The notes below the pieces were generated by a model. The model was not told the origin of the DNA and made no database searches. It saw nothing but the letters and a program-made list of their open reading frames with translations. Shown here piece by piece: positions 18,161 through 51,112 of a stretch of DNA of 64,000 nt. Position 1 is the stretch's first letter. The number at the start of each line of letters is the position of its first letter. Position numbers and translations under genes: made by a program. Source of the DNA: a virus; the IMG/VR virus record IMGVR_UViG_3300045998_000148, positions 35,878 through 99,877 of that record. One strand, 5' to 3'.

Positions 18161-18189
18161 AAATGCCAACCAGCAAGACAAGCATCGAG
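18161..18189 (+). repeat. Left copy of 29-bp direct repeat flanking an inserted gene
   Basis: 29 bp running from AAATGCC to AAGCATCGAG, matching 19014-19042 with a single difference (A/G at the eighth base). It contains the start codon and first nine codons (MPTSKTSIE) that begin the Gp37/Gp68 gene downstream. Confidence 0.9.
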
Positions 18190-18966
18190 ATGAACGGCGA
18201 ATCAGTAGCAACCAATTGTTCTCTGGTCTTCAACTACGGGGGCGGTCGGCAAACCGTGGCAATGTGCATCATGATAGCGAAGGGTGTCTTGCCAAAACCC
18301 AATGTTGTCGTAATGGCTGACACTAGCAGAGAAAACCCGATGACATGGGATTACCTTGAAAAGTACACGCAGCCGATGATGACTGAGCTTGGTTGTCCAG
18401 TGGAAATTGCTAGGCATGAGCTTGCAAAAGTGGATCTTTATGCGAACAACGGCAACTTGTTGCTCCCAGTCTATACAAAGGATGGCAAGCTTCCGACGTT
18501 TTGCTCCACTGAGTGGAAGAAGCGTGTTGTGCGAAGGCATCTGCGTGCAAGCGGACACAGTGGCGGAACGCAATGGTTGGGACTGGCGATGGATGAAAAG
18601 CGAAGATGGAAGAAACACCACGGGAAAGTTGAAGGCAAGTGGCTTACCGTTTGTCCGCTTGTTGATTTAATGATTAACACAGATGCCTGCCTGAGCGTCA
18701 TTAAGTCGTTCGGTTGGCCGGAACCGCACCAGTCAGCTTGTTGGATGTGCCCCCATAAGAAGAATGCAGAGTGGCGTGAAATCAGAGACAACCATCCTGC
18801 TGAGTGGAAGCGGGCTGTGGAGCTTGATAAAAAGATTCGAGCTTCCGATGACCACGGCGGCGTGTTTTTGCATCGCGATCGTGTGCCACTGGATCAAGCC
18901 AACTTGGACGCGGAAGAGACTCCCGAGCTAGTGCGGCAGTGCAGTCTCGGTATGTGTTTCGTGTGA
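18163..18966 (+). CDS. PAPS-reductase-like PP-loop protein
   Basis: 267 aa. The PP-loop lies in SLVFNYGGGRQTVAMCI near residues 20-36, followed by VVMADTSRENPMTWDYLE. Cysteines lie in FCSTEWKKR near 112 and SACWMCPHKK near 196, as in the phage branch of phosphoadenosine phosphosulfate reductase-like proteins, which adenylate or sulfur-transfer to unknown targets. The first nine residues copy the N-terminus of the next gene, so the native start may be the ATG at 18190 (MNGESVATN). No GCGATCGC octamer occurs in it, and its codon use differs from its neighbours, pointing to recent transfer. It might take part in nucleic-acid modification (inference). Confidence 0.75.
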   Translation: MPTSKTSIEMNGESVATNCSLVFNYGGGRQTVAMCIMIAKGVLPKPNVVVMADTSRENPMTWDYLEKYTQPMMTELGCPVEIARHELAKVDLYANNGNLLLPVYTKDGKLPTFCSTEWKKRVVRRHLRASGHSGGTQWLGLAMDEKRRWKKHHGKVEGKWLTVCPLVDLMINTDACLSVIKSFGWPEPHQSACWMCPHKKNAEWREIRDNHPAEWKRAVELDKKIRASDDHGGVFLHRDRVPLDQANLDAEETPELVRQCSLGMCFV

Positions 18967-19013
18967 CCTAACCTAGATTCAAAGAACCAGTCATTGGAAA
19001 ACTGCTAATAGCG

Positions 19014-19042
19014 AAATGCCGACCAGCAAGACAAGCATCGAG
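19014..19042 (+). repeat. Right copy of 29-bp direct repeat
   Basis: It matches 18161-18189 at 28 of 29 positions and forms the natural 5' end of the Gp37/Gp68 gene. The two copies bracket about 850 bp carrying the PAPS-reductase-like gene. Confidence 0.9.
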
Positions 19043-19714
19043 TGGACAGACAAGACTTGGAATCCGACGACGGGCTGCAACAAAGTTAGTCCGGGCTGCC
19101 AGTATTGCTACGCCGAAGCACTGGCCGAAAGATTTCCCAAAAGTTTCACGCAGGGGTTCAAGTTGACCCTGCACCCCGAGCGGATAGAGCAGCCAAAAAA
19201 ATGGCGCAAACCCAGCCGCATTTTCGTGAATTCTATGAGCGATTTGTTTCACGAAGATCTGCCTTTTTCCTACTTGCAGGAGATTTTCGCGGTAATGCAA
19301 GATACGCCGCAGCATACCTATCAAATCCTGACCAAGCGCGATCGGAACTTGGCAAAATTAGCGCCCCTGCTTGAATGGCCTGAAAATATTTGGGCGGGCG
19401 TATCGGTAGAAAGCCAGTCTTATGTCTACCGGATCGATGCCTTGAGAGAAGTTCCCGCAAGAGTACGATTCCTTTCCTGCGAGCCTTTGTTGAGTCCGCT
19501 CGCCCTAAATTTGAAAAAAATTGACTGGGTGATCGTTGGCGGCGAATCTGGATACCGACATCGCCCCATAGAGCCGGAATGGGTGAGGGACATCTTGCGC
19601 CAAACGAGAGAAGCAAAGGCGGCCTTCTTTTTCAAACAGTGGGGCGGACGCCACTCGAAGGCGGGAGGCCGGACATTGGACGATCGCGTGTGGGACGAGA
19701 TGCCATCAGTGTAA
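19016..19714 (+). CDS. Phage Gp37/Gp68 (DUF5131) family protein
   Basis: 232 aa. The family start TSIEWTDKTWNPTTGC is followed by a radical-SAM-like cysteine cluster, CNKVSPGCQYCYAEALAERF (C-x7-C-x2-C), FVNSMSDLFHED, HTYQILTKR, a WAGVSVESQ stretch and IVGGESGYRHRP near the end. This family is common in phages next to DNA-modification and methyltransferase genes, and the fold suggests radical-SAM chemistry; the substrate is unknown. Its last base is shared with an ATG in the frame of the Dam gene (TAATG), so the two are probably coupled. Confidence 0.9.
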   Translation: MPTSKTSIEWTDKTWNPTTGCNKVSPGCQYCYAEALAERFPKSFTQGFKLTLHPERIEQPKKWRKPSRIFVNSMSDLFHEDLPFSYLQEIFAVMQDTPQHTYQILTKRDRNLAKLAPLLEWPENIWAGVSVESQSYVYRIDALREVPARVRFLSCEPLLSPLALNLKKIDWVIVGGESGYRHRPIEPEWVRDILRQTREAKAAFFFKQWGGRHSKAGGRTLDDRVWDEMPSV

Positions 19715-19758
19715 TGAGCGGGGCTGAAAGGGCTAAGCGATGCCGGGGAAAAAACGGA

Positions 19759-20673
19759 ATGCAAAGAATTAAGCCGTTATTCAGCTATTATGGGGGCAAG
19801 CGGCGTCTAGCAACGCGCATTGCAGCGGAATGCTGGAAAATCCCCCATTCAGTCTACACGGAGCCATTCGCGGGCGGTTGTGCCGTGTTGTTTGCCAAGG
19901 GATTGCCTGCCATCTCTAACAGCGATCATTACCGAGAAGCAATCAACGATCGCGACAGTCGGATCGCTAACATTTACTGGGTTGCGAGACATCACCCAGA
20001 CGAACTAGAAAGGCGATTGCAACTGACGCCTTACAGTCAGGAATGCTATCGGGAGGCAGTGCAACTATGCAAAGAAGGCAGCGACGACCGCATTGAGATG
20101 GCATGGGCTGCGATCGTCAATTTAGAGATGTCGTTTGCAAACAAGATGAATGGAGGATGGGGAACCAATGTTTGTAGCGAGAATCGTGCTGCAACATGGG
20201 CAGCAAAGCGAACAAGCCTGACATTTGCTATGAAAAGGCTTGATCGAGTCTATCTTGGCAATGAAGACGCACTGCGTTTTATTGAGAGATGGGATTCGCC
20301 CCAAAGCTTGCACTATACAGATCCTCCATACCCTAACACCGAACAAGGACATTACAGTGGCTATACTCTGGACGACTGGCAAGCCTTGTGCAACTTGCTA
20401 GACGACATTAATGGCAGCTACATTCTTAGTAACTATTTCCAACCTATTGAGCCAAAATCGGCACAGCAACGGATTGAGATTAGCGTAAATTGTTCTAGCA
20501 GCGGAGCTGGCATGGTTGGCAAGAACAGGGACAAATCGCGAGCTGCCACTGCTGAGGAATTAGGCGATCGCTCTCGGACTGAGGTTTTGTGGATTTGCGA
20601 TCGCTCCCACAAAATCAGGAAAGAACTTTACGCCGTCACTCAGAACAAGCACAAGCAACTCAAATTGCTTTAG
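19759..20673 (+). CDS. dam: Dam-type N6-adenine DNA methyltransferase (D12 class)
   Basis: 304 aa. Motif X LFSYYGGKRRL at residues 6-16, motif I EPFAGGCAVLFA near 35, motif IV YTDPPYPNTEQGHY near 200 and a C-terminal VLWICD are typical of the Dam/DpnM group, which usually methylates GATC. GATC is abundant here because HIP1 and the 13-bp arrays contain it. I chose the ATG at 19759 because the family starts there and GGGGAA lies upstream; the ATG at 19714 overlaps the previous stop and would add 15 basic residues. It ends before a hairpin shared with the convergent Cas8-like operon. Confidence 0.9.
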   Translation: MQRIKPLFSYYGGKRRLATRIAAECWKIPHSVYTEPFAGGCAVLFAKGLPAISNSDHYREAINDRDSRIANIYWVARHHPDELERRLQLTPYSQECYREAVQLCKEGSDDRIEMAWAAIVNLEMSFANKMNGGWGTNVCSENRAATWAAKRTSLTFAMKRLDRVYLGNEDALRFIERWDSPQSLHYTDPPYPNTEQGHYSGYTLDDWQALCNLLDDINGSYILSNYFQPIEPKSAQQRIEISVNCSSSGAGMVGKNRDKSRAATAEELGDRSRTEVLWICDRSHKIRKELYAVTQNKHKQLKLL

Positions 20674-20776
20674 CGCCATCGGTGCAGTAATGCCGCAACA
20701 TCAAACCGCAAAACCGTTTAACCCTTAATACCTTTGCCAGAAAAACCATAACTTTGCCAGAGGAAGCATAACTTTG

Positions 20777-20825
20777 CCAAAGGAACCATAAAACTTCCAA
20801 AACGGCAAAATTATGGTTCCTTTGG
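20777..20825. terminator. Bidirectional hairpin between convergent genes
   Basis: A perfect 15-bp inverted repeat (CCAAAGGAACCATAA at 20777-20791, TTATGGTTCCTTTGG at 20811-20825) with a 19-nt loop lies between the ends of the Dam gene and the Cas8-like gene. Just upstream, the phrase CATAACTTTGCCAGAGGAA is repeated with variations. Confidence 0.6.
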
Positions 20826-20840
20826 CTGTCCCCGCACCCC

Positions 20841-20875
20841 GCAAAAAAAACCGATCGAATCTCGGCGACGATCGG
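20841..20875 (-). terminator. Intrinsic terminator of the Cas8-like operon
   Basis: On the minus strand a stem CCGATCG / CGATCGG (20869-20875 with 20851-20857) is followed by eight T residues. It lies 31 bp after the stop codon at 20906. Confidence 0.8.
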
Positions 20876-20905: not shown

Positions 20906-21913
20906 TTAAACTTCTAGCGCAAGCATTTTTCTCAGCCCTTTCTTTTCAGCCACAAGCGAGTCAAATTCCAAGTCTGCAAACCCTTCGTACCACTCCGACC
21001 CCTTTGCCAGGTTTGCGACGATCGCGCCTCGGAGGGGGTTTGCCGAAACAAAACGCCTGCCTTCACTGTCGCTACCGCCCTTGTTTGGAAACATTTCCCG
21101 AATCCGTTCATAATCGGCAATATAGTCTTCCGTTGGGTGGGCTGTCTTCGCATCGACGATCGACGCAACGCGGTTGCTCGACCTCGAATAGAACTGATAG
21201 CCGTGGACGTACTGCTTATTGCGATCGCAGTAATCCGCACAGGCATCAATCAGGTTTGCCGCGACAAATCGATCGGCATCACAAGGCTTATTGAATTTGA
21301 TCGTCTCCAGGCTGACTATATCTGGACAAATCAGGCCGTAGCTGTATCTTCGCTTGTGTCCGAACTTTTCCTGAATTTGATAGAAACCCCAGGTTAGAGG
21401 AGAAAACAAGCTAGCGATCGCATTTTCAAACGACAACCGAATTCCGCTACTGGAATTGGGAATCGCAGTAGACTTCAGCGTAACCCCCTTCGCTCTCGCT
21501 TGAAACTTCAACTTTTTAGCAAAACCTTGATGGACGAACGACTTCAAAAACAACGTATTGAAAGCGATTTCTCCAAAAGGGGATTCGAGGGCGATCGCTT
21601 CAGGGTACAGCATGGGACGCGAGGCGGGCGATTGCAGTAAAGTCTCCAGCATCCCGATATGCGTTGTCAAATTACAACCAGGCAAAGAGATGATCCCGCC
21701 AGAGAGCCGGAAAGTCTGTCGAAACAGAAAATCCCAGGCTTCCACAAAATCGCCATCCCAAGAAACCTCAATTTTGGTTCGGTCTTTCTGCCACTGAAAG
21801 ACAGATTGCTCTTTAGGCAGAGATTCGAGGGCAAAGGCCAACCCCGCAATCCCGGCAGAAATATGACAGTCGCCAATAGAATGCGACAAAACATCAAAAG
21901 TCAATGAATTCAT
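20906..21913 (-). CDS. Lone Cas8-like protein (Cas8a1/Cmx8 type)
   Basis: 335 aa. Features match type I CRISPR Cas8a1/Cmx8 proteins: the N-terminal HISAGIAGLAFALESLP (family: AGLAGL), IEVSWDGDFVEAWDFLFRQ then LSGGIISLPG near 75, RRYSYGLICPDIVSLE near 200, and the C-terminal PLRGAIVANLAKGSEWYEGF with EKKGLRKML. Usual family members are clearly longer (about 500 aa), so this is a compact version. No cas5, cas7, cas6, cas3 or repeat array is in the window. Start: ATG at 21913, overlapping the stop of the preceding gene (ATGA). It might mimic a Cascade subunit to block host CRISPR (inference). Assignment is by eye. Confidence 0.6.
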   Translation of the reverse strand: MNSLTFDVLSHSIGDCHISAGIAGLAFALESLPKEQSVFQWQKDRTKIEVSWDGDFVEAWDFLFRQTFRLSGGIISLPGCNLTTHIGMLETLLQSPASRPMLYPEAIALESPFGEIAFNTLFLKSFVHQGFAKKLKFQARAKGVTLKSTAIPNSSSGIRLSFENAIASLFSPLTWGFYQIQEKFGHKRRYSYGLICPDIVSLETIKFNKPCDADRFVAANLIDACADYCDRNKQYVHGYQFYSRSSNRVASIVDAKTAHPTEDYIADYERIREMFPNKGGSDSEGRRFVSANPLRGAIVANLAKGSEWYEGFADLEFDSLVAEKKGLRKMLALEV

Positions 21914-22290
21914 GCTGCTACCGCCTCCACTTCCCGACTCTCCCGCAAAAGCTCGGAAAAATCCGGCATATTCGACAGCCCGCTTTTTTTCCAGGCAAAC
22001 TGCCGGTTGTTTCCCATCACCCAATAGAGGCCATTCGTCAAAAAAACGGCGGCATAGGGATAGCCATCGTCTTCCGGGCATCCAGCCGCCGCCCGTAATT
22101 CCTTGCCAAAATCGTAGGGCGATTCAAATTCTGTACTGACCACCTCCTCGAAAATGAATTTGTCGAGCTGCGCCGGAAAGTGCGCGTTAATCCACCGATT
22201 GTCGGCGATCGCAATCCCCAACTTTTGCACGAAATCCAAATAAGCCGTGGCGTTTGCCTTAGCATCAGACTTATAAACGTAAACGGTCAT
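21910..22290 (-). CDS. Unknown protein in the Cas8-like operon
   Basis: 126 aa, strong ribosome-binding site AAGGAG eight nt before the ATG. It is a mixed alpha/beta soluble protein; motifs such as TVYVYKSDAKANATAYLDFV, NRWINAHFPAQLDKFI and AVFLTNGLYWVMGNNRQFAWKK are not known to me. It is coupled by ATGA to the Cas8-like gene, so the two proteins are likely made in similar amounts and may act together. Confidence 0.65.
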   Translation of the reverse strand: MTVYVYKSDAKANATAYLDFVQKLGIAIADNRWINAHFPAQLDKFIFEEVVSTEFESPYDFGKELRAAAGCPEDDGYPYAAVFLTNGLYWVMGNNRQFAWKKSGLSNMPDFSELLRESREVEAVAA

Positions 22291-22337
22291 TGCCTTACTC
22301 CTTTTTTTTCGTTTTTGCCGACAGGTCGAGATGGCTC

Positions 22338-22853
22338 CTAAATTTGCGCTGCGATGTTCCGTACTTCTGACGGCTTGGTGAGACTTTCTGGAACTTCCAG
22401 ACTGGAGGAACTATCCCCCAGCTTGAAAACCCGCTCGACTTCCCTCAGCGTCTCTTCGCCACAAGTGGGACGCTTCCAAAACCGCTCAGTAGCATCGATC
22501 GCAGCCATCGCCTCCAAAGAATTGAAGTTTGCAAGCTTTTCCAGCAGCTCGTGACGATCTGCACCCCACTTCGCATCCAACCCGTTCTCCTCGATCGCCG
22601 ATTCGACCGAAAGCAACAGCGCCGCATCTGGCGACAGACAGGGATCGAAAAATTCCCCATTGAGGGCATCGCAAAGCAGCAGGGCTTCATTGCGATTGAG
22701 CGACAATTTTTTAAGCGATCGATCGACCAAGGCATAATACCTCGCGAGATCTGACTGCGCCTGAACTCCCAAGGAAGCGCCCCACTTGACGCGATCGCTC
22801 AAGTTTTCTTGGAGCGCCTTGTTTAGACGGAAAGAGACACTGGGACTGGGCAT
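22338..22853 (-). CDS. RHH-like small regulator of a widespread hypothetical family
   Basis: 171 aa from the ATG at 22853 (AAAAGGAG upstream), not the earlier in-frame ATG. SVSFRLNKALQENL resembles a ribbon-helix-helix strand-helix start. DLARYYALVDRSLKKLSL, EALLLCDALNG, AIEENGLDAKWGADRHELLEKL and DATERFW match a hypothetical family that I recall from cyanobacteria and actinobacteria. As the first gene of the operon it may bind its own promoter, where an inverted repeat lies between -35 and -10 (inference). Confidence 0.65.
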   Translation of the reverse strand: MPSPSVSFRLNKALQENLSDRVKWGASLGVQAQSDLARYYALVDRSLKKLSLNRNEALLLCDALNGEFFDPCLSPDAALLLSVESAIEENGLDAKWGADRHELLEKLANFNSLEAMAAIDATERFWKRPTCGEETLREVERVFKLGDSSSSLEVPESLTKPSEVRNIAAQI

Positions 22854-22877
22854 TACGGACTCCTTTTCTTTTGCTCC

Positions 22878-22906
22878 ACTGTATTCCAACTGCCCACAGT
22901 TGTCAA
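22878..22906 (-). promoter_or_regulatory. Promoter of the Cas8-like operon with internal inverted repeat
   Basis: Minus-strand TTGACA (22901-22906), a 17-bp spacer, then TACAGT (22878-22883), 25 bp before the ATG at 22853. The spacer holds CAACTG-CCCA-CAGTTG (22887-22902), a likely operator. Confidence 0.7.
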
Positions 22907-22930
22907 CGCCTGCCTACAGCTATCTTTGTC

Positions 22931-22979
22931 CTGCTGATTTTGCAGCGCGATCGCCCCCGCTTCCGCCAGGGATTTATTG
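22931..22979 (-). repeat. 49-bp displaced copy of part of a distant gene
   Basis: 48 of 49 bases match 53003-53051, where they code the NKSLAEAGAIALQNQQ stretch of the membrane/coiled-coil gene at 52898-53419. Here it is non-coding, in the same orientation, and sits between the operon promoter and a 20-bp repeat array. Confidence 0.9.
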
Positions 22980-22980
22980 T

Positions 22981-23175
22981 CTACTTACCGACTTTATTAT
23001 CTATTTACCGACTTTATTATCTATTTACCGACTTTATTATCTATTATTTGCCGAATTACCTACTTACCGACTTTATTATCTATTTACCGACTTTATTATC
23101 TATTTGCCGAAGTATTTATTTACTGACTTTATTACCTACTTGCCAACTTTATTATCTATTTACCGACTTTATTAT
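22981..23175. repeat. 20-bp tandem array, iteron-like
   Basis: Ten contiguous units of the type CTATTTACCGACTTTATTAT tile this stretch; seven are exact or nearly so, three are degenerate and 18-19 bp long. It is AT-rich in an otherwise GC-balanced region and fills most of the 344-bp gap between the Cas8-like operon and the next gene. Iterons for replication initiation or an array of repressor sites are the two main readings. Confidence 0.85.
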
Positions 23176-23197
23176 CTTGCGTTTTTCAAAGAAAGCG

Positions 23198-34573: not shown

Positions 34574-34815
34574 GCTACAGATCGCCGCTACAGATCGCCG
34601 CTACAGATCGCCGCTACAGATCGCCGCTACAGATCGCCGCTACAGATCGCCGCTACAGATCGCCGCTACAGATCGCCGCTACAGATCGCCGCTACAGATC
34701 GCCGCGACCGCCGCTACAGATCGCCGCCACAGATCGCCGCTACAGATCGCCGCCACAGATCGCCGCTACAGATCGCCGCTACAGATCGCCGCCACAGATC
34801 GCCGCTACAGATCGC
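34574..34815. repeat. 13-bp tandem array 1
   Basis: About 18 units of 13 bp, consensus GATCGCCGCTACA, with a few GATCGCCGCCACA variants and one GATCGCCGCGACC insertion. It fills the gap between the terminator of cassette 1 and the promoter of cassette 2. The period of 13 makes long false open frames on both strands. Confidence 0.95.
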
Positions 34816-34839
34816 TTTTTATTGCCGCTTCTATTTTTA

Positions 34840-34916
34840 TTGCCGCTATACCGATTTAATCGGTATAATAGGATCGAGTTTATTTATCGCGGCTAAAATG
34901 CCGCTAGGGGGTTTTT
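34840..34916 (+). promoter_or_regulatory. Cassette 2 promoter, operator and leader
   Basis: TTGCCG (34840-34845), 18-bp spacer, TATAAT (34864-34869). Perfect palindrome 34847-34867 (arms TATACCGATT and AATCGGTATA, 1-bp centre). Hairpin GCGGC/GCCGC at 34889-34904, then AGGGGG before the ATG at 34917. GCCGCTTCTATTTTT just upstream of -35 is conserved among cassettes 2-8. Confidence 0.85.
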
Positions 34917-35537
34917 ATGAGTATTGATGTTACTGCCTACGATCGCGATATCGATCTATTGCAAGAGATAAAAGGATTTTACGATAGGCTAGAAAAAGAT
35001 GTAGAGCCAGCAAAACTCTATCCTGCCTATCTTCAATATTCTGATTACAGCGGTAGCCTAGTCGAGCGATCTAATGTTGAGTGTTTTTTAGAGAATTTTG
35101 GAGATGTTGAGGGGGTTACGACTGAAAGCGGCGTATATGGATATGAAGCGATCGCGATATCGGCGATCGCCTTTAGGGGCGATCGCGGCGCTGAAATACA
35201 GGAAACACTAGACGCGCTAAGCGATTACCCTTTAATTTCCGATGATCATTATACGGAATTATGCGAGGAAATTTTTTCTGTGTGTTGGGGGGAAGATGGA
35301 TATTCCGATTTTATTAGAGAACTAAAGAAAAAATTCGACCTAAGCGATACTACTGCTGAGTTTTTAGAAAAAATTCCGCTATTAGAGCTGTATTATGACG
35401 CGATCCCATCAGGAGAATATTATATAGACGAAAACCCCCAGTACATATACATTCCGATCGATCGCGCGGTTGATAATATCGATCGAGATACGCTGGCTCA
35501 TTACATTAAAGAGCAAAAAGCGAAAAAATCGATCTAA
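34917..35537 (+). CDS. Cassette 2: acidic phage protein of a recurrent hypothetical family
   Basis: 206 aa, strongly acidic. The stretch YSDYSGSLVERSNVECFLEN, then GVYGYEAIAISAIAF, LDALSDYPLISDDHYTELCEE and CWGEDGYSDFI follows a pattern I recognise from many phage hypotheticals (DYSGS-x-VERSN ... L-x-DYPL-x-x-x-D-Y), whose function I do not know. Strong AGGGGG ribosome-binding site. Its single-gene unit has its own promoter and terminator. Confidence 0.75.
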   Translation: MSIDVTAYDRDIDLLQEIKGFYDRLEKDVEPAKLYPAYLQYSDYSGSLVERSNVECFLENFGDVEGVTTESGVYGYEAIAISAIAFRGDRGAEIQETLDALSDYPLISDDHYTELCEEIFSVCWGEDGYSDFIRELKKKFDLSDTTAEFLEKIPLLELYYDAIPSGEYYIDENPQYIYIPIDRAVDNIDRDTLAHYIKEQKAKKSI

Positions 35538-35561
35538 GCGCTATTCTCTATTGAGTTTTAA

Positions 35562-35593
35562 CGATCGCCTATTATGGGCGATCGCTTTTTTTT
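35562..35593 (+). terminator. HIP1-based terminator, cassette 2
   Basis: Stem CGATCGCC (35562-35569) / GGCGATCG (35577-35584), then eight T. Confidence 0.85.
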
Positions 35594-35594
35594 A

Positions 35595-35911
35595 GCTACA
35601 GATCGCCGCCACAGATCGCCGCCACAGATCGCCGCCACAGATCGCCGCCACAGATCGCCGCTACAGATCGCCGCGACCGCCGCTACAGATCGCCGCCACA
35701 GATCGCCGCTACAGATCGCCGCCACAGATCGCCGCTACAGATCGCCGCTACAGATCGCCGCTACAGATCGCCGCTACAGATCGCCGCCACAGATCGCCGC
35801 GACCGCCGCTACAGATCGCCGCGACCGCCGCTACAGATCGCCGCTACAGATCGCCGCTACAGATCGCCGCTACAGATCGCCGCGATCGCCGCCACAGATC
35901 GCCGCGATCGC
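35595..35911. repeat. 13-bp tandem array 2
   Basis: Roughly 24 units of GATCGCCGC(T/C)ACA with three GATCGCCGCGACC interruptions and two GCGATCGC ends. It occupies nearly all of the gap between cassette 2 and cassette 3. Confidence 0.95.
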
Positions 35912-35935
35912 TTTTTATCGCCGCTTCTATTTTTA

Positions 35936-36009
35936 TTGACTTATACCAATTAAAGGGGTATAATGGCGGCTATAAGCTAATCGCGGCTAAAATGCCGCTA
36001 GGGGAATAA
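35936..36009 (+). promoter_or_regulatory. Cassette 3 promoter, operator and leader
   Basis: TTGACT (35936-35941), 17-bp spacer, TATAAT (35959-35964). Imperfect operator TATACC...GGTATA. Leader hairpin GCGGC/GCCGC, then AGGGG ahead of the ATG at 36010. The ATG inside the hairpin opens a five-codon frame MPLGE ending just before the gene start. Confidence 0.85.
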
Positions 36010-36423
36010 ATGCGCGGCTATAAGATTCAAGATATGTATATTCGCTTTGACGATAACAATCGCGATCGTCTGATAGTGCTAACAGCAAGGCGATTGTATA
36101 ATCATTTTATTTGTGAAGGCGATCCCGTCCTGCGCTGTTTTACAGTTTCCAATGGGACGGACTCCGGCAAAAAAGTCCTGTGGCAGTACGCATTTACTAA
36201 TACAAAACTGTCCGTAAAGGACAGTTATTCTGACAATAACAATAATAGACTACAAACGTTTGAAGTCGGTCGAGAAGGGTCTGGCCCTGAGACTTCCGTA
36301 TATTGGGCCGCGTATTTAAACGACTGCCCAATAGACTTAAACTACAGGCTAACACTGTTTAGGGATGAAGATCACACTTATTCAAATTGGGTAAATAGGC
36401 TAAAAAACAAATATCTTAATTAA
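36010..36423 (+). CDS. Cassette 3: unknown protein
   Basis: 137 aa, less acidic than its neighbours. It looks like a single beta-rich domain (YIRFDDNNRDRLIVLTARRL, KKVLWQYAFTNTKLSVKDSY) with a C-terminal SNWVNRLKNKYLN. GC content is visibly lower and HIP1 rarer than in the late genes. No family recognised. Confidence 0.7.
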   Translation: MRGYKIQDMYIRFDDNNRDRLIVLTARRLYNHFICEGDPVLRCFTVSNGTDSGKKVLWQYAFTNTKLSVKDSYSDNNNNRLQTFEVGREGSGPETSVYWAAYLNDCPIDLNYRLTLFRDEDHTYSNWVNRLKNKYLN

Positions 36424-36444
36424 CCCACTGTTCTTATGGATCGG

Positions 36445-36474
36445 CGATCGCCTATTATGGGCGATCGTTTTTTT
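36445..36474 (+). terminator. HIP1-based terminator, cassette 3
   Basis: Stem CGATCGCC (36445-36452) / GGCGATCG (36460-36467), then seven T. Confidence 0.85.
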
Positions 36475-36478
36475 ATGC

Positions 36479-36549
36479 CTACAGATCGCCGCTACAGATC
36501 GCCGCGACCGCCGCTACAGATCGCCGCTACAGATCGCCGCGATCGCCTA
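36479..36549. repeat. 13-bp tandem array 3 (short)
   Basis: Five units of the GATCGCCGCTACA family with one GATCGCCGCGACC interruption, ending in GCGATCGCC. Confidence 0.9.
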
Positions 36550-36574
36550 TTTTTTTTTGCCGCTTCTATTTTTA

Positions 36575-36649
36575 TTGCCGCTATACCGATTAAAGGGGTA
36601 TAATGGCGGCTATAAACTAATCGCGGCTAAAGTGCCGCTAGGGGAAAAT
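36575..36649 (+). promoter_or_regulatory. Cassette 4 promoter, operator and leader
   Basis: TTGCCG (36575-36580), 18-bp spacer, TATAAT (36599-36604), operator arms TATACCGAT / GGGGTATA. Leader hairpin GCGGC/GCCGC and AGGGG before the ATG at 36650. Confidence 0.85.
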
Positions 36650-37186
36650 ATGATTGCAGTAGCCACCAGAAACAATCCCGCGATCTATATCGCTGACCTT
36701 GCCGCCTATAACGCGGGTATCCTGTCTGGCGAGTGGATCGACGCGGATCGAGAAGCAGACGAGATCCACCAGGATATAGTCGATCTGCTTTCCAGATCGC
36801 CCATCCAAAACGCTGAAGAGTATGCGATCCACGACTCAGAGGGGTTTTTTGGCTTAAAAATACATGACTTTGAATCGCTCGCAAAAATAGCGGAATATGG
36901 GCAAGCGATCGCCGAATTCGGGCGATCCGCCGCCGCTTTTATCGATTATCAGGGGGAATGGGATCGAGAGGCTTATCTAGACGCCTATATTGGCGAATAT
37001 GACAGCGAAGCTGATTTCTGCTATGCGCGGCTAGAGGAAACCGGAGAACTAGAGGCGATCGAAAAAGTCGCACCTAGCGCGGCTGCCTATATCGATTTTG
37101 AGGCAGTGGCTAGAGACTGGTTTCTAAGCGATTTTTGGGAAACTAAAGGCGATTCTGGCAAAATTTTAGTTTTCTATCGATGGTAG
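36650..37186 (+). CDS. ardA: Cassette 4: ArdA-family antirestriction protein
   Basis: 178 aa, the usual ArdA length. Family motifs are clear: PAIYIADLAAYNAGILSGEW with IDADREADEIHQDI after it, SPIQNAEEYAIHDSEGFFGL near 65-85, AEYGQAIAEFG, AYIGEYDSEADFCYA near 122, and the C-terminal YIDFEAVARDWFLSDFW with a closing VFYRW. ArdA is an elongated acidic DNA mimic that occupies type I restriction-modification enzymes and is expressed on entry. This is the one cassette whose function is firm, and it anchors the reading of the array as an anti-defence island. Confidence 0.93.
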   Translation: MIAVATRNNPAIYIADLAAYNAGILSGEWIDADREADEIHQDIVDLLSRSPIQNAEEYAIHDSEGFFGLKIHDFESLAKIAEYGQAIAEFGRSAAAFIDYQGEWDREAYLDAYIGEYDSEADFCYARLEETGELEAIEKVAPSAAAYIDFEAVARDWFLSDFWETKGDSGKILVFYRW

Positions 37187-37214
37187 TAAGCAATTAGATA
37201 GAGGTTGTTCTGTA

Positions 37215-37243
37215 GCGATCGCCCATTGCGATCGCTTTTTTTT
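37215..37243 (+). terminator. HIP1-based terminator, cassette 4
   Basis: GCGATCGC (37215-37222), loop CCATT, GCGATCGC (37228-37235), eight T. Confidence 0.85.
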
Positions 37244-37422
37244 GGCTACAGATTGCCACGATCGCCACTACAGATCGCCGCTACAGATTGCCACGATCGC
37301 CACTACAGATCGCCGCTACAGATTGCCGCTACAGATCGCCGCTACAGATCGCCACTACAGATCGCCGCTACAGATTGCCGCGATCGCCGCTACAGATTGC
37401 CGGATCGCCGCCACAGATCGCC
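37244..37422. repeat. 13-bp tandem array 4 (diverged)
   Basis: The same repeat family as arrays 1-3 but with GATTGCCGC and CACGATCGCC variants, so periodicity is less strict. It lies between cassettes 4 and 5. Confidence 0.9.
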
Positions 37423-45536: not shown

Positions 45537-45694
45537 CTTGAGGCGATCGGATGGCGATCGCCTTCCCCATTCATTCAGCCAGTGCCGCCAGAGCTTTCCC
45601 GCCTTTGGCGGTTCGGGCAAGATGCCAGCAACAAGATCGCTTTTGCTTCCGCTTTTGCTTCCGCCTTCAAAAAAATTACCGAGAAAAATTTGTC

Positions 45695-48600
45695 ATGTCT
45701 AAAAAAGCAATTACGGGCGCGATCGCCGCGATTTCGTCTTTAAAGTCCGAGCGCCCCGATCCGGGTTGCCTCATGCAGTTCCAAGGATGGGGCAACTGTA
45801 AAGCCCTTTTCGCAGGCGATAGCACGAGCGAGATCGCCCAATACCTGTTAGACGTGCCAGCTAACGCGCCAAATAAAAAGGATTGGCTGTTAGAGGCAAG
45901 GCGGCAACTTCGAGACTTGCTGACCCCTGCGGAGTGGCAGCAAGCGAGGGGATCGGCGCTGACTAGCTACTTCACCCCACCCCATTTAATTGATGCCCTT
46001 TGGAAGGCGGTTCGGCAGATCGGCTTTGATTTTGGCAGGGTTTTAGAGCCGGGATGCGGGCGCGGCGATTTTATCGCAAGATCGAATCTCGCGCAGCAGT
46101 CTTTCTTCGGGATCGAATCCGACCCCATTACGGCGGCGATCGCCCAAGCGCTCAATCCGAATGCCGCCATCTACAATAAAACGCTCGAAGGCGTCGATTT
46201 TCCCGATGGCTATTTTGACCTGGCGATCGGCAACGTCCCCTTTGGTTCTTATCGGGCGACCGATCCGCGCTATGCTCAACTCGGCGGCAACATACACGAG
46301 TATTTTCTCGCCAAGTCGCTCGATTTGGTACGCCAGGGGGGGATCGTCGCACTGATCGTACCCGTTTCCCTCTTCCAGCGAAAAAATCCATCTTTTCGCC
46401 GCTATGTCGGCGGCTACGAAGATCGGGTGCAAGTCTCTATTGCCAAAAAGGAACGAGATCGCCTGCGCCAAGAGGCCAAAAGGTCGGGCATGGACTCTAA
46501 GACCTCCATCCCAAGCTACAAATACGAGCGCTTCCGCTACGGCGGGATCGCCAAATTGGTAGAGGTAATCTGGCTGCCAGACAGCACTTTTGAGGGGACG
46601 CAAGCCCAGGCCGCGATCGCCGTCTTTCAAAAGAACAGACAAGGCGACTTTAAGCCCTGGACGGAAACGACCGAATTTTCCATAAACTTTGCCGCCTTCG
46701 AGCGCGATCGCGCACCCCAAACGGTGCGAGTCAACCGTTTTTTTGAAAGGGAGCTGCGCCTGCGGCAGGTGGACGGCATAAATCGACTTGTCAATGCAAG
46801 CAGCGATCCGATGTTCGATGACCCGCCCCGCTTTTTGGGCAGTCCCGATATCAACCCGCTTTACGGCGAAGGGCTGAGTTGCGCCGATAGCGGGCGCGAT
46901 ATCGCCGCCGATATTGCAGCTATTTTTAAATGGACGCCGAAGGTTTACGGCCAACCCATCGATCGGATATTCGACGGCCAAATCCTATCGCCGGAGATGC
47001 AGGATCTCCGAGAGGGAGAGTTTGTCTTTCATGAAGGCCGCCATTACTTCAGGAAAGAAGCACTCTTAAAACCCGTCCCGACAGTGACAGAGTTTGTCTA
47101 TCGCGGCAAGAAATACACGATCGACCGGACGGGCGACCGCATCGCCGATTTTATTCGACTTGCCAGCGCGACCGAACGGCTGGCACGGGCGCAGTCCGAC
47201 CCCGCGCCGATCGCGCCGCTACAGACCGTCTGCCGCATTTTTTATGCTACTTTTGTCCGGCGTTGGGGGCATTTCAAGCAAAAGGGCTTCAATGCTAACG
47301 AGGTGCTACTATCGGGCGACCCGCGCTATGCGCTGACAGCCGAACTCGAACGCTGGGACGGCGATCGCGTCGTGCCGTCGCCCATCCTGACCGAGCGCAT
47401 CGGGCGCGTTTACGGCGAACCGGAAACCTGCGACAATCCCCGCGATGCCATTATCGCCAGCTTGAATCGATTCGGACGCATCGATATAAATTACGTCGCT
47501 CGATTGCTTGGCGATACCGTCGAGCGCCTGTCTGAATACCTCGCTCACAAACAACTTGCCTTTTTCGACCCCGACAAGGGCGACTGGGCCTTTTGTGACG
47601 AATACCTCTCCGGCAACCTGCGGGAGAAGATCGCATCGGCACTCTCTCATTCCGGTTCCCTCGACCTGGCTGCCAATATTAAAGCCCTGCGGTCGGCACT
47701 GCCCAAGCCGATCTTGCCTCGCACCCCCGACCGCGAGCTAGCGATCGAGTGTTTGGAAGATCTCGACATTCCCGTAGCGGAATTAGACGAGCGCGAGCTA
47801 TCGGAATACCTCGATCGCCGATTTACGGTCGAGCTTGGCGCAACCTGGATTGCGCCGGAAGTTTACGCCCGTTTTGCCCGCGAGCGATTGGAAATAAAAA
47901 TTATCGAGGTGAGCTACTTGCCGCCGATTGCTACTTTTTTCGTTTCCGGCGATAGCCGCGACCGCTCGCAATGGGGGACGGAAGACATGACTTCCCTTCA
48001 AGTTTACGATTGCGCCTTAAATTTAAAGCGCCCCCGCATTGTCAGGCGGAATGCCGATGGCAGCTTTGACTACCACAATTCCGAGCTGGCAACCCGCATG
48101 GTTGTTGCCAAAATAGAGGACATGAACCGCGATTTTGTCGATTGGATTTGGAGCGATCGCAAGCGCACGATCGAGGTTTCCACCCTCTACAACCTCAATA
48201 TAAATTCCTGTATGCCGCGTCAATTTACAGGAGATTGGTTGGAGTTGCCCGGACTCAACCCCGCCATCGAACTCTATCCCTGGCAGCAGCGCGGCATCGC
48301 TCGAATCCTGCAATCTCAATCTACTTTTTTGAGCTGGTGTGTTGGGGCGGGCAAGACTTTGGCGCTGATTGTCGCCGCCGAAGAAATGCTGCGGCTAGAC
48401 ATGGCTCGCCGCCCTATCGTCGTCGTGTTAAATGGAACGGAAGGGCAGTTTTTAAACGAGTGGAAGGTAGCCTATCCCGCTTCTAACGTCGCACTATGCC
48501 CTCGCGCCAAAAAAGACCGCACTTCTTTTTTAGCTTCTCTGCCGCACCGTACCAAGGGGGCAATCGTCATGACTCACTCGCAATTTTTCATGCTCCGAGT

Positions 48601-51112
48601 AAGTCGAGAATATCAGCTCGCTTTTTTAAATTTCGAGAAGGATATGCTAGTAGACGCCTTGAATACTATCTCAAGGGAAGCGCGGGCGATCGGCGGCACT
48701 CAGCGCACGACCGAGCGCACCTTGCAACAGCACTTGAAGCGATTGCAGGCTAAGATCGACCGCGTTCTGATGAGTCAATCCAAACACGATGAGTTTGATT
48801 TCGAGTCACTGGGAATTGACTCCATCTTTTTTGATGAATTTCACGTCAATAAGCGCTTTCCGATTCAGACCAAACAGCAAGGCGTTCGCGGCATTCCCTC
48901 GGGCGATTCTCAGCGGGCGATCGATACCTATTGCAAGCTGGCCTACACTTTGGGTCAATTTTTTGCCGACCTCAAGCACGAGGTAAAGGGCAAGGTTGTC
49001 GCCGCTACTGGGACGATGCTTTCAAACACGATTGCTGAGATATACGTCTGGCAGCGAATGTTGCAGTTGCCCCTACTCGAAAAAATGGGTACGACTCACT
49101 TCGATGCTTGGGCATCTCAATTTGTCGAAATTAGTTCCGACCCAGAGGTTAAACCTGACGGGCGCTATGAGATGACCGATCGGATGAAGAGTTTCTATAA
49201 TATTCGCGTCTTACGCGCCCAAGTCGAGCAATTTGTCGATTTCTTTACCCCTAAAGACCTCGATGACGCCGCCATTGTCGCCAAGCCGACCGCGCATTAC
49301 ATCGATTGCGTCTGTCCGCCTAGCGAAGCACAAAAGCAATTTCTCAAGACTGCCCTGCGGCGGGCGGTTGCCATTCGCAGGCGGCAGGTTACGCCCGAAG
49401 AGGACAATATGCTCGTGCTGACCACCGATTTGATTAAGGCCAGTTTGAGCGTCCGACTCCTTTGCTGGAAGGAACCCCAACTCGACAATAAGATTCACTC
49501 CCTCGCCCTTAACGTCCTGTTTATTTATCGGGAAACCAACGGGACGCAACTTATTTTTTGCGACCTCTCTACCGATAAGGGGGAAGGCGAATTTAGCGTC
49601 TATCGCTACATCCGCGAGCTGCTGGTCGCCTGCGGCATCCCCGCCGACGAGATCGAGTACGCTCAAGACCACAAAAACGTCGAGCGCCGCAACGAATTGC
49701 GCGATCGCGTCAATCGCGGCGAAGTTCGCATCGTCATTGGCTCGACGGCTACGCTGGGGACGGGCTGCAATTTTCAAGAGTGGGGGCTGCACGCCCTTCA
49801 TCACCTCGACGCGCCGCACCGCCCGACTGACCTCGAACAGCGCGAGGGGCGCGGCATCCGCCAGGGGAACGGCAAAAATCAACTGGGGGAGGATACGACT
49901 TTTGCCTACTGTCTCGTCTTTCGCTACATTACCGAACGGCTCGATTCCCTGCGCTGGCAGGCGCTTCAAAATAAACGCAATATGATCGTCCAGTTTTTTG
50001 AAGGCCGCGACATCGACCAATTGCTCGAAATAAGCGAAGAAGAACGCCCCCTGACCTACGAAGAGGTCAAGGCACTCGCGACGGGCAATCCCCTACTTAC
50101 CGAAGATGCCCGACTTCGCAAGGAACTCGACGGCCTTCTCGCCCGCCAGCATCAATTTAATACGACTCGCCATCGCATTGCTTGGGATTTGAAGGCGATC
50201 TCTTCTCAAATAAAGGGCACGCTTTCTAAAATTGACGCAATTGAAGATTTTTTCCTCGCTCAAGGCGAGCCGACCCCCAGAACTCAATTGCAGTTCTTTG
50301 GGCTGGAACCCTGTAAGGTTCCCCTCGGCGATGCTCTCCGCCTCGGCCATACTTTTCGCGCCGTCGCCAATCAACTTAAGGGCAGGCGGCACGATATCTA
50401 CCCCATTATTTGCAAGCTGGGCAAGCTGGCGATCGCCCTCGAACATCAGACAATATACGGTTATACGTTCGTGCTGATAGGCAGTGCCATTGCAAAGGGC
50501 GAGGCAGTCGGGGAAAATACGGCAGATCGGCACTGCGAGGGCTTTACTATTAAGCTAAAGCAATTGACGGGCAAGCAAAATAGAAGCTATGACCTCAAGA
50601 GCAACAGCACGCCGGATGAGGCCGAACGAATTGGCGCTCAATTGCAGAAAATTTACCGCTTCGCCCTTTTGGATTGGCGCGATCGCCTGGTCGATGTCGT
50701 CTCTCACTTAAATCACAGTCAGATGCAGTTAGAACGGCAGCAATCACAAGGGGCTTTTTCTCAGAGCGATCGCATCTTGGAGGTGCGCGATCGCCTTGCT
50801 GAAATTGCAGAACTGCTGAAAGAAGATCGCGACATCCTCGAATTTGAAAAGGAAGAAGACCGCCCCATCGTTTACGATGACCTGGATTTTTCCCCAACCG
50901 AGTTTACCGTCCGCTATCTCCTGCACGGGCTAACTCAGTTTCAACCCGATTGGGCTTCCCTTCTCTCTCAAACGGTGACGAAATCGCGCTCTGGGGTGCT
51001 GCCCCTGAATGTTCGCGACGATGCTATCGAGGATGACGATTCCGACGATTCCGACGATTCCGACGATTCCGACGATTCCGACGCTCTCCCTCTTACCTGG
51101 CAGGTTAATTAG
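45695..51112 (+). CDS. Giant DNA methyltransferase-helicase fusion, DarB-like
   Basis: 1805 aa. N6-adenine methyltransferase domain near residues 90-230: TPPHLIDALW, VLEPGCGRGDF (motif I), FGIESDP and IGNVPFGSY (motif IV, NVPF for NPPY). Helicase domain near 870-1400: YPWQQRGIARIL, Walker A CVGAGKTLAL near 881, DEFH near 1047, GRGIRQGNG near 1385. The C-terminal 400 residues are helical with a Ser/Asp tail. This layout is that of phage P1 DarB and related phage/plasmid proteins, which shield incoming DNA from type I restriction or modify it. Start ATG 45695; the open frame extends to 45551 through a low-complexity leader. Confidence 0.85.
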   Translation: MSKKAITGAIAAISSLKSERPDPGCLMQFQGWGNCKALFAGDSTSEIAQYLLDVPANAPNKKDWLLEARRQLRDLLTPAEWQQARGSALTSYFTPPHLIDALWKAVRQIGFDFGRVLEPGCGRGDFIARSNLAQQSFFGIESDPITAAIAQALNPNAAIYNKTLEGVDFPDGYFDLAIGNVPFGSYRATDPRYAQLGGNIHEYFLAKSLDLVRQGGIVALIVPVSLFQRKNPSFRRYVGGYEDRVQVSIAKKERDRLRQEAKRSGMDSKTSIPSYKYERFRYGGIAKLVEVIWLPDSTFEGTQAQAAIAVFQKNRQGDFKPWTETTEFSINFAAFERDRAPQTVRVNRFFERELRLRQVDGINRLVNASSDPMFDDPPRFLGSPDINPLYGEGLSCADSGRDIAADIAAIFKWTPKVYGQPIDRIFDGQILSPEMQDLREGEFVFHEGRHYFRKEALLKPVPTVTEFVYRGKKYTIDRTGDRIADFIRLASATERLARAQSDPAPIAPLQTVCRIFYATFVRRWGHFKQKGFNANEVLLSGDPRYALTAELERWDGDRVVPSPILTERIGRVYGEPETCDNPRDAIIASLNRFGRIDINYVARLLGDTVERLSEYLAHKQLAFFDPDKGDWAFCDEYLSGNLREKIASALSHSGSLDLAANIKALRSALPKPILPRTPDRELAIECLEDLDIPVAELDERELSEYLDRRFTVELGATWIAPEVYARFARERLEIKIIEVSYLPPIATFFVSGDSRDRSQWGTEDMTSLQVYDCALNLKRPRIVRRNADGSFDYHNSELATRMVVAKIEDMNRDFVDWIWSDRKRTIEVSTLYNLNINSCMPRQFTGDWLELPGLNPAIELYPWQQRGIARILQSQSTFLSWCVGAGKTLALIVAAEEMLRLDMARRPIVVVLNGTEGQFLNEWKVAYPASNVALCPRAKKDRTSFLASLPHRTKGAIVMTHSQFFMLRVSREYQLAFLNFEKDMLVDALNTISREARAIGGTQRTTERTLQQHLKRLQAKIDRVLMSQSKHDEFDFESLGIDSIFFDEFHVNKRFPIQTKQQGVRGIPSGDSQRAIDTYCKLAYTLGQFFADLKHEVKGKVVAATGTMLSNTIAEIYVWQRMLQLPLLEKMGTTHFDAWASQFVEISSDPEVKPDGRYEMTDRMKSFYNIRVLRAQVEQFVDFFTPKDLDDAAIVAKPTAHYIDCVCPPSEAQKQFLKTALRRAVAIRRRQVTPEEDNMLVLTTDLIKASLSVRLLCWKEPQLDNKIHSLALNVLFIYRETNGTQLIFCDLSTDKGEGEFSVYRYIRELLVACGIPADEIEYAQDHKNVERRNELRDRVNRGEVRIVIGSTATLGTGCNFQEWGLHALHHLDAPHRPTDLEQREGRGIRQGNGKNQLGEDTTFAYCLVFRYITERLDSLRWQALQNKRNMIVQFFEGRDIDQLLEISEEERPLTYEEVKALATGNPLLTEDARLRKELDGLLARQHQFNTTRHRIAWDLKAISSQIKGTLSKIDAIEDFFLAQGEPTPRTQLQFFGLEPCKVPLGDALRLGHTFRAVANQLKGRRHDIYPIICKLGKLAIALEHQTIYGYTFVLIGSAIAKGEAVGENTADRHCEGFTIKLKQLTGKQNRSYDLKSNSTPDEAERIGAQLQKIYRFALLDWRDRLVDVVSHLNHSQMQLERQQSQGAFSQSDRILEVRDRLAEIAELLKEDRDILEFEKEEDRPIVYDDLDFSPTEFTVRYLLHGLTQFQPDWASLLSQTVTKSRSGVLPLNVRDDAIEDDDSDDSDDSDDSDDSDALPLTWQVN

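Follow-up and report, generated by a model that had tools for sequence, protein, structure and literature searches.

A gene for a protein of 335 amino acids, carried in a small operon of a cyanophage contig, was found to derive from cas8a1. As judged from profile searches and alignments, its product shares homology with the Cas8a1/Cmx1 of type I-B ("I-MYXAN") CRISPR systems in cyanobacteria over the whole large-subunit part, far above chance, and it is a Cas8 minus Cas11, a large subunit without the small one. The role that we moderately favor for it is that of a dominant-negative anti-CRISPR, in which the phage Cas8 lacking Cas11 would take the place of Cas8 in the host Cascade. A lone, short, Cas8-derived gene inside a phage operon had been proposed in a first-pass annotation of this DNA, and its presence was borne out by HMMs, tblastn and alignments. 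Positions given below (Table 1) refer to the window, that is, the whole stretch of 64,000 nucleotides that was analyzed, which belongs to a 99.9-kb contig (IMG/VR record IMGVR_UViG_3300045998_000148).

Table 1. Features of the operon and its flanks, in window coordinates.
Feature	Position	Strand	Basis or remark
Terminator-like hairpin CCGATCG-11 nt-CGATCGG then T8, after the last gene	20843..20875	(-)	Read from sequence
335-aa ORF, Cas8a1/Cmx1-derived, covering the large-subunit part of Cas8 and lacking the C-terminal Cas11 domain	20906..21913	(-)	HMMs, tblastn, alignments
Final six codons MLALEV; ATG is codon 330, aligned with the putative internal Cas11 start of full-length cas8a1	20909..20926	(-)	Alignment
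126-aa ORF, no family match; ATGA-coupled to the cas8-derived gene	21910..22290	(-)	
171-aa ORF, first gene of the operon; candidate autoregulator	22338..22853	(-)	Mostly helical in low-confidence model
Promoter TTGACA-17-TACAGT	22878..22906	(-)	10/12 consensus matches; best match of the region
Perfect palindrome CAACTG-TGGG-CAGTTG, candidate operator, from the -35 end into the spacer	22887..22902	(-)	
About ten tandem 20-bp repeats (TTTATTATCTATTTACCGAC), just upstream of the operon promoter	22973..23177	(.)	

Identity and extent of the Cas8-derived protein

The NCBIfam profile TIGR03485 (Cas8a1/Cmx1) matched the 335-aa protein with an E value of 5.6e-13 and a score of 48.3 bits, under the curated family cut-off of 80.85, and the PADLOC Cas8b profile matched it at 3e-14. 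An independent HMM, built from 35 cyanobacterial Cas8a1 sequences with the phage protein left out, was run on the ORFs of the contig and recovered the protein with E 7e-30 (~101 bits) over profile positions 4-355 of 490, against a best score of 1.8 bits among 500 shuffles. In tblastn searches the protein matched the Cas8a1 of a Nostoc MS1 plasmid (E 1e-11, 98% query coverage), as well as the plasmid-borne Cas8a1 of [Synechococcus] NIES-970 and S. elongatus UTEX 3055, and the cas8a1 genes of these plasmids were located within type I-MYXAN cas operons. The original family label, Cas8a1/Cmx8, holds as to Cas8a1 homology, found with several profiles, and is to be corrected in its second half, the proper name being Cmx1. 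Of the hallmarks reported at both ends, the C-terminal one (NL..G..WYEGF) is located close to where the large-subunit part stops, not at the C-terminus of Cas8. Identical residues in the phage protein were found in 34 of the 74 columns of that part conserved at 85% or more, mostly near both ends.

The AF2 model of the protein, built from the Cas8 alignment, was of low confidence (mean pLDDT 46). The sole significant PDB match of this model in Foldseek was 8fcj_I, a Cas8 from a type I-B Cascade (E 2.6e-5, TM 0.32); at that pLDDT, the structural comparison suggested at first pass is a weak test.

The full-length Cas8a1 relatives are 486-546 aa long vs. 335 aa in the phage, and the difference falls at a defined place. 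A 'GL..M' site, situated 128-147 residues from the C-terminus of full-length Cas8a1, carried an RBS-like sequence (AAGGA/GGAGG-type) together with an in-frame ATG or GTG in 27 of the 28 relatives; in the remaining one the script chose another site. Taken alone, this motif is weak evidence for an internal start, because its Gly codon is also constrained by the protein. The solved homologue 8fcj, from a type I-B CAST, contains a separate Cas11 chain of 138 residues whose sequence is that of the Cas8 C-terminus and which starts at the same Met as the 'GL..M' site (position counted on the alignment). The phage protein ends in EKKGLRKM-LALEV-stop, with the stop five residues past the Met aligned to the Cas11 start, and alignment to full-length Cas8a1 revealed no C-terminal, internally started Cas11 domain in it.

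With Cas8a1/Cmx1 (TIGR03485) and with chain I of 8fcj the phage protein shares homology along the whole large-subunit part, and conservation is seen at both its ends. In contrast to Cas8a1/Cmx1, it is phage-borne, has no other cas genes beside it and lacks, in addition to the Cas11 domain, a conserved Pro-Gly segment ('NPGAVVRH') and about 25 mid-protein residues, either side of a conserved Cys (alignment). In the Cas8b of Synechocystis, a GVP loop contacts the PAM (PMC11096372). The Pro-Gly loop may be its counterpart, a mapping made by motif resemblance only, because the Synechocystis Cas8b was undetected by the Cas8a1 profile.

Divergence and coding state

A tree built from the large-subunit part gave the phage protein a branch of 4.9 changes per site vs. 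a median end branch of 0.17. The protein fell outside both cyanobacterial Cas8a1 groups, and its exact origin is therefore unsure. The frame of 335 codons is intact, with no stops, and codon use favors the right frame; at such a distance, these features argue that the cas8-derived gene has been maintained. Truncated, very diverged and alone, the gene could be taken for a functionless decaying remnant of a cas operon, and decayed cas6-cas8 fragments do exist in one cyanobacterial chromosome, yet such an origin is improbable given the stop-free, properly used frame, the ATGA coupling to the preceding gene and an end that lies just past the Cas11 start and is not random.

Proposed mode of action and comparison with known inhibitors

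Under the dominant-negative reading, a cyanophage would have acquired a cas8a1 gene and retained it as a Cas8 lacking Cas11. The protein, made during infection, would fill the Cas8 seat beside Cas5 and the crRNA 5' end through its conserved domain ends; it would be unable to supply the C-terminal domain by which Cas8 joins the Cas11 belly, and would probably read the PAM poorly or not at all, so that the resulting host Cascade would be defective in R-loop formation and Cas3 recruitment. Such a protein, lacking the C-terminal domain and damaged in the Pro-Gly region, would be expected both to fill the seat and to spoil the complex. In this specific form, a 'seat-filler' Cas8 with Cas11 removed at its start codon, which takes over from host Cas8, with the result that Cascade has neither a connected Cas11 belly nor normal PAM reading, the proposal has in our estimation close to an even chance of being right. 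The Haloferax type I-B Cascade lacking Cas11b assembles and gives no interference (PMC11899642), and the Cas8b C-terminal domain together with Cas11b makes up the belly, by which the displaced strand is supported (PMC11096372). Viral homologues of Cas5 and of the Cas8b C-terminal domain inhibit type I-B immunity, according to the account of Katz et al. 2024 in PMC13131331, and the precedent of Cas-derived anti-CRISPRs described there makes an antagonist role plausible by analogy.

Several points weigh against the dominant-negative reading. Free Cas11 would still come from the cas8 mRNA of the host, the low-confidence model leaves the Cas8 fold and the Cas5-binding surface as predictions, and the reading presupposes a Cas8a1-type system in the host of the phage. 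Moreover, binding to a present host Cascade is not assured, because of the divergence of the protein and its score below the TIGR03485 cut-off, and the truncated form had no second example in the collections searched (IMG/VR, phages, plasmids and 386 sampled cyanobacterial genomes). A Cas-derived inhibitor could also act by another route, as a sponge for Cas5, crRNA, Cas3 or Cas11, or on another CRISPR type, with no stable Cascade subunit formed. The Cas3-like AcrVIA2 affects type VI by way of a loss of crRNA (PMC13131331), AcrIB4 leaves Cascade assembly possible as far as it is described in the same source, and the high divergence of the phage protein would suit such a route; the conservation of both ends of the whole large-subunit part, instead of one binding patch, fits seat-filling better, and we regard the alternative route as rather unlikely.

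The protein displays two features of Cas-derived anti-CRISPRs, being an orphan Cas homologue on a mobile element and missing an element needed by the native subunit. Two Listeria inhibitors offer the nearest comparisons, both from Katz et al. 2024 as reported in PMC13131331. AcrIB4 (9 kDa) is there a homologue of the Cas8b C-terminal domain; like the phage protein, it is an orphan located on a mobile element and homologous to a portion of a type I-B Cas8, but it corresponds to the C-terminal part, whereas the phage protein (335 aa) is the complementary part without that domain. AcrIB3 is described as a Cas5 mimic that replaces Cas5, and the proposed likeness would be that of a whole-subunit mimic replacing a Cascade subunit without an element needed for function; in that account AcrIB3 is a Cas5 with demonstrated activity, whereas the phage protein is a Cas8 known here from its sequence. 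AcrIF3, in turn, has been described as a mimic of a Cas8f domain, the Cas3-recruiting one (PMC11656645). Dominant-negative mimicry of part of Cas8, as proposed for the phage protein, would be common to both, but the phage protein is recognizable by sequence and covers the large-subunit body.

Orphan cas-derived inhibitors are a kind already known; what is new is the piece kept, a Cas8 large-subunit body ending at the Cas11 start, and its occurrence in a cyanophage. The anti-CRISPR literature cited here comprises a mimic of Cas5, a piece from the C-terminus of Cas8b, a mimic of the Cas3-recruiting domain and a Cas3-like protein, and no seat-filler Cas8. The conversion of host Cas proteins into inhibitors by viruses is a live question: AcrIB3 and AcrIB4 show that it occurs, and a 2024 review calls the apparent lack of broad Cas protein recruitment by viruses an enigma (PMC11656645). 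A Cas8 cut at the Cas11 start constitutes a clean natural experiment, by which the duties of the Cas8 body could be tested apart from those of Cas11 in cyanobacteria. If the proposal is true, the protein would be an inhibitor aimed at cyanobacterial Cas8a1-type I-B systems and a candidate off-switch for them.

Operon and regulatory signals

The operon consists of three minus-strand genes in a row, from 22853 to 20906, encoding proteins of 171, 126 and 335 aa, with the cas8-derived gene third. Most of the expression signals listed in the first-pass annotation were found: the ATG of the 335-aa ORF overlaps the TGA of the 126-aa ORF, plausible ribosome-binding sites precede all three genes (AAAAGGAG, AAAAAGGAG and GGAGG), and the promoter includes an inverted repeat, the palindrome CAACTGTGGGCAGTTG, with a partial copy (GCTGTAGGCA) just upstream, at 22911-22920. 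The claim of an own terminator stood in part, in that the hairpin followed by T8 is visible, but terminator-like sites of the region (a list that includes a shorter form of this hairpin) were no more frequent than in shuffled sequence. From these sequence signals we infer that the operon is expressed as a unit. A search of 18-26 kb against Rfam gave no match.

The product of the first gene is a candidate repressor of the operon, for which the promoter palindrome may serve as the site of action. The RHH-like character attributed to it was not confirmed: neither an HTH nor any other family match was obtained in Pfam, NCBIfam, PADLOC or PHROGs, its low-confidence model was uninformative, and the relatives retrieved were weak ones on Streptomyces and Pseudomonas plasmids. 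In acr-aca operons an inverted repeat is found inside the core promoter (PMC9410906), and the phage operon resembles them in being small and in having an inverted repeat within its core promoter; it differs in the first position of the gene for the candidate regulator, and in the lack of an HTH or family match for this regulator in the libraries searched. By analogy, the promoter palindrome fits an autorepressed operon of the acr-aca style. The 126-aa protein had no match in Pfam, NCBIfam, PADLOC, PHROGs, plasmids, phages, IMG/VR or the 386 cyanobacterial genomes.

Three copies of a 20-bp repeat different from that upstream of the promoter were observed downstream of the operon (20728-20791), and both sets are possible iterons or operator arrays.

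Phage genome, host and relatives

The contig is a real cyanophage, with genes for the terminase large subunit, a head maturation protease, two endolysin-like proteins, a DnaB helicase and DNA methyltransferases. The terminases of Planktothrix phage PaV-LD and Aphanizomenon phage CL131 were the closest to that of the contig, and the HIP1 octamer was present in 164 copies vs. ~2 expected; because of these two features, the host is very probably a cyanobacterium. A search for a host link through the spacers of I-MYXAN arrays returned short chance words only. A DarB-like antirestriction protein of 1853 aa (45551-51112; PHROG 10089, E 1.9e-239) is another sign of counter-defence in this phage. Beside the operon, at 18163-20673, genes for a PAPS-reductase-like protein, a DUF5131 (radical-SAM-like) protein and a Dam-like DNA methyltransferase were observed, and a 13-bp repeat (GCTACAGATCGCC) forms several arrays of up to 25 copies at 34574-37422.

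The first-pass annotation had named as contrary evidence a complete cas operon at another place in the phage, and a search for one across the 99.9 kb was negative; no other cas gene (cas1/2/3/5/6/7) was detected in the contig by tblastn or HMM, nor any I-MYXAN CRISPR repeat, solitary (Racr-like) ones included. The record has no noted end repeats and may be a fragment, so that the gene could be a piece of a larger phage CRISPR system with its other genes beyond the contig; the absence of those cas genes over such a length, and the position of the operon deep inside the contig (~56.7-58.8 kb) under its own promoter, render this highly improbable. A still-working Cas8 might instead join host Cas5, Cas7 and Cas11 in a phage-modified Cascade serving gene regulation or the exclusion of rival phages, given that some cyanophages have CRISPR arrays without cas genes (N-1, PMC6293099) and that I-MYXAN-type mini-arrays were found on IMG/VR contigs. 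With no I-MYXAN repeat in the contig, and with the Pro-Gly segment, mid-protein residues and Cas11 all lost, there seems little to expect of this reading.

No close relative of any of the three operon proteins was found in IMG/VR, where canonical Cas8a1 profiles gave no match either. Phage records yielded none for the Cas8-derived and 126-aa proteins and chance-level matches only for the 171-aa protein, which was also without a match in the 386 cyanobacterial genomes. Apart from full-length proteins, the only Cas8 sequences in those genomes were two decayed chromosomal fragments forming a pair and one stretch riddled with stops, and terminase relatives in IMG/VR had no Cas8 in the stretch examined. 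One split cas8/cas11 locus, considered as a natural parallel, was rejected because its sequence reads like that of a frameshift in a MAG of low coverage (L017).

The decayed pair consists of two similar cas6-cas8 (5' part) copies ~21 kb apart in one cyanobacterial chromosome (G112; L044:7838-9235 and L045:7794-8954), each of them then followed by a DNA methyltransferase-like gene. The repeat core of cyanobacterial I-MYXAN arrays was present in nine IMG/VR viral contigs (L048-L056), in one to four copies each, with no cas gene in the flanks examined; several of these copies are organized as short arrays with a period of ~70-73 bp, and the repeats may represent mini-CRISPR arrays of viruses or RNA anti-CRISPRs of the solitary-repeat kind.
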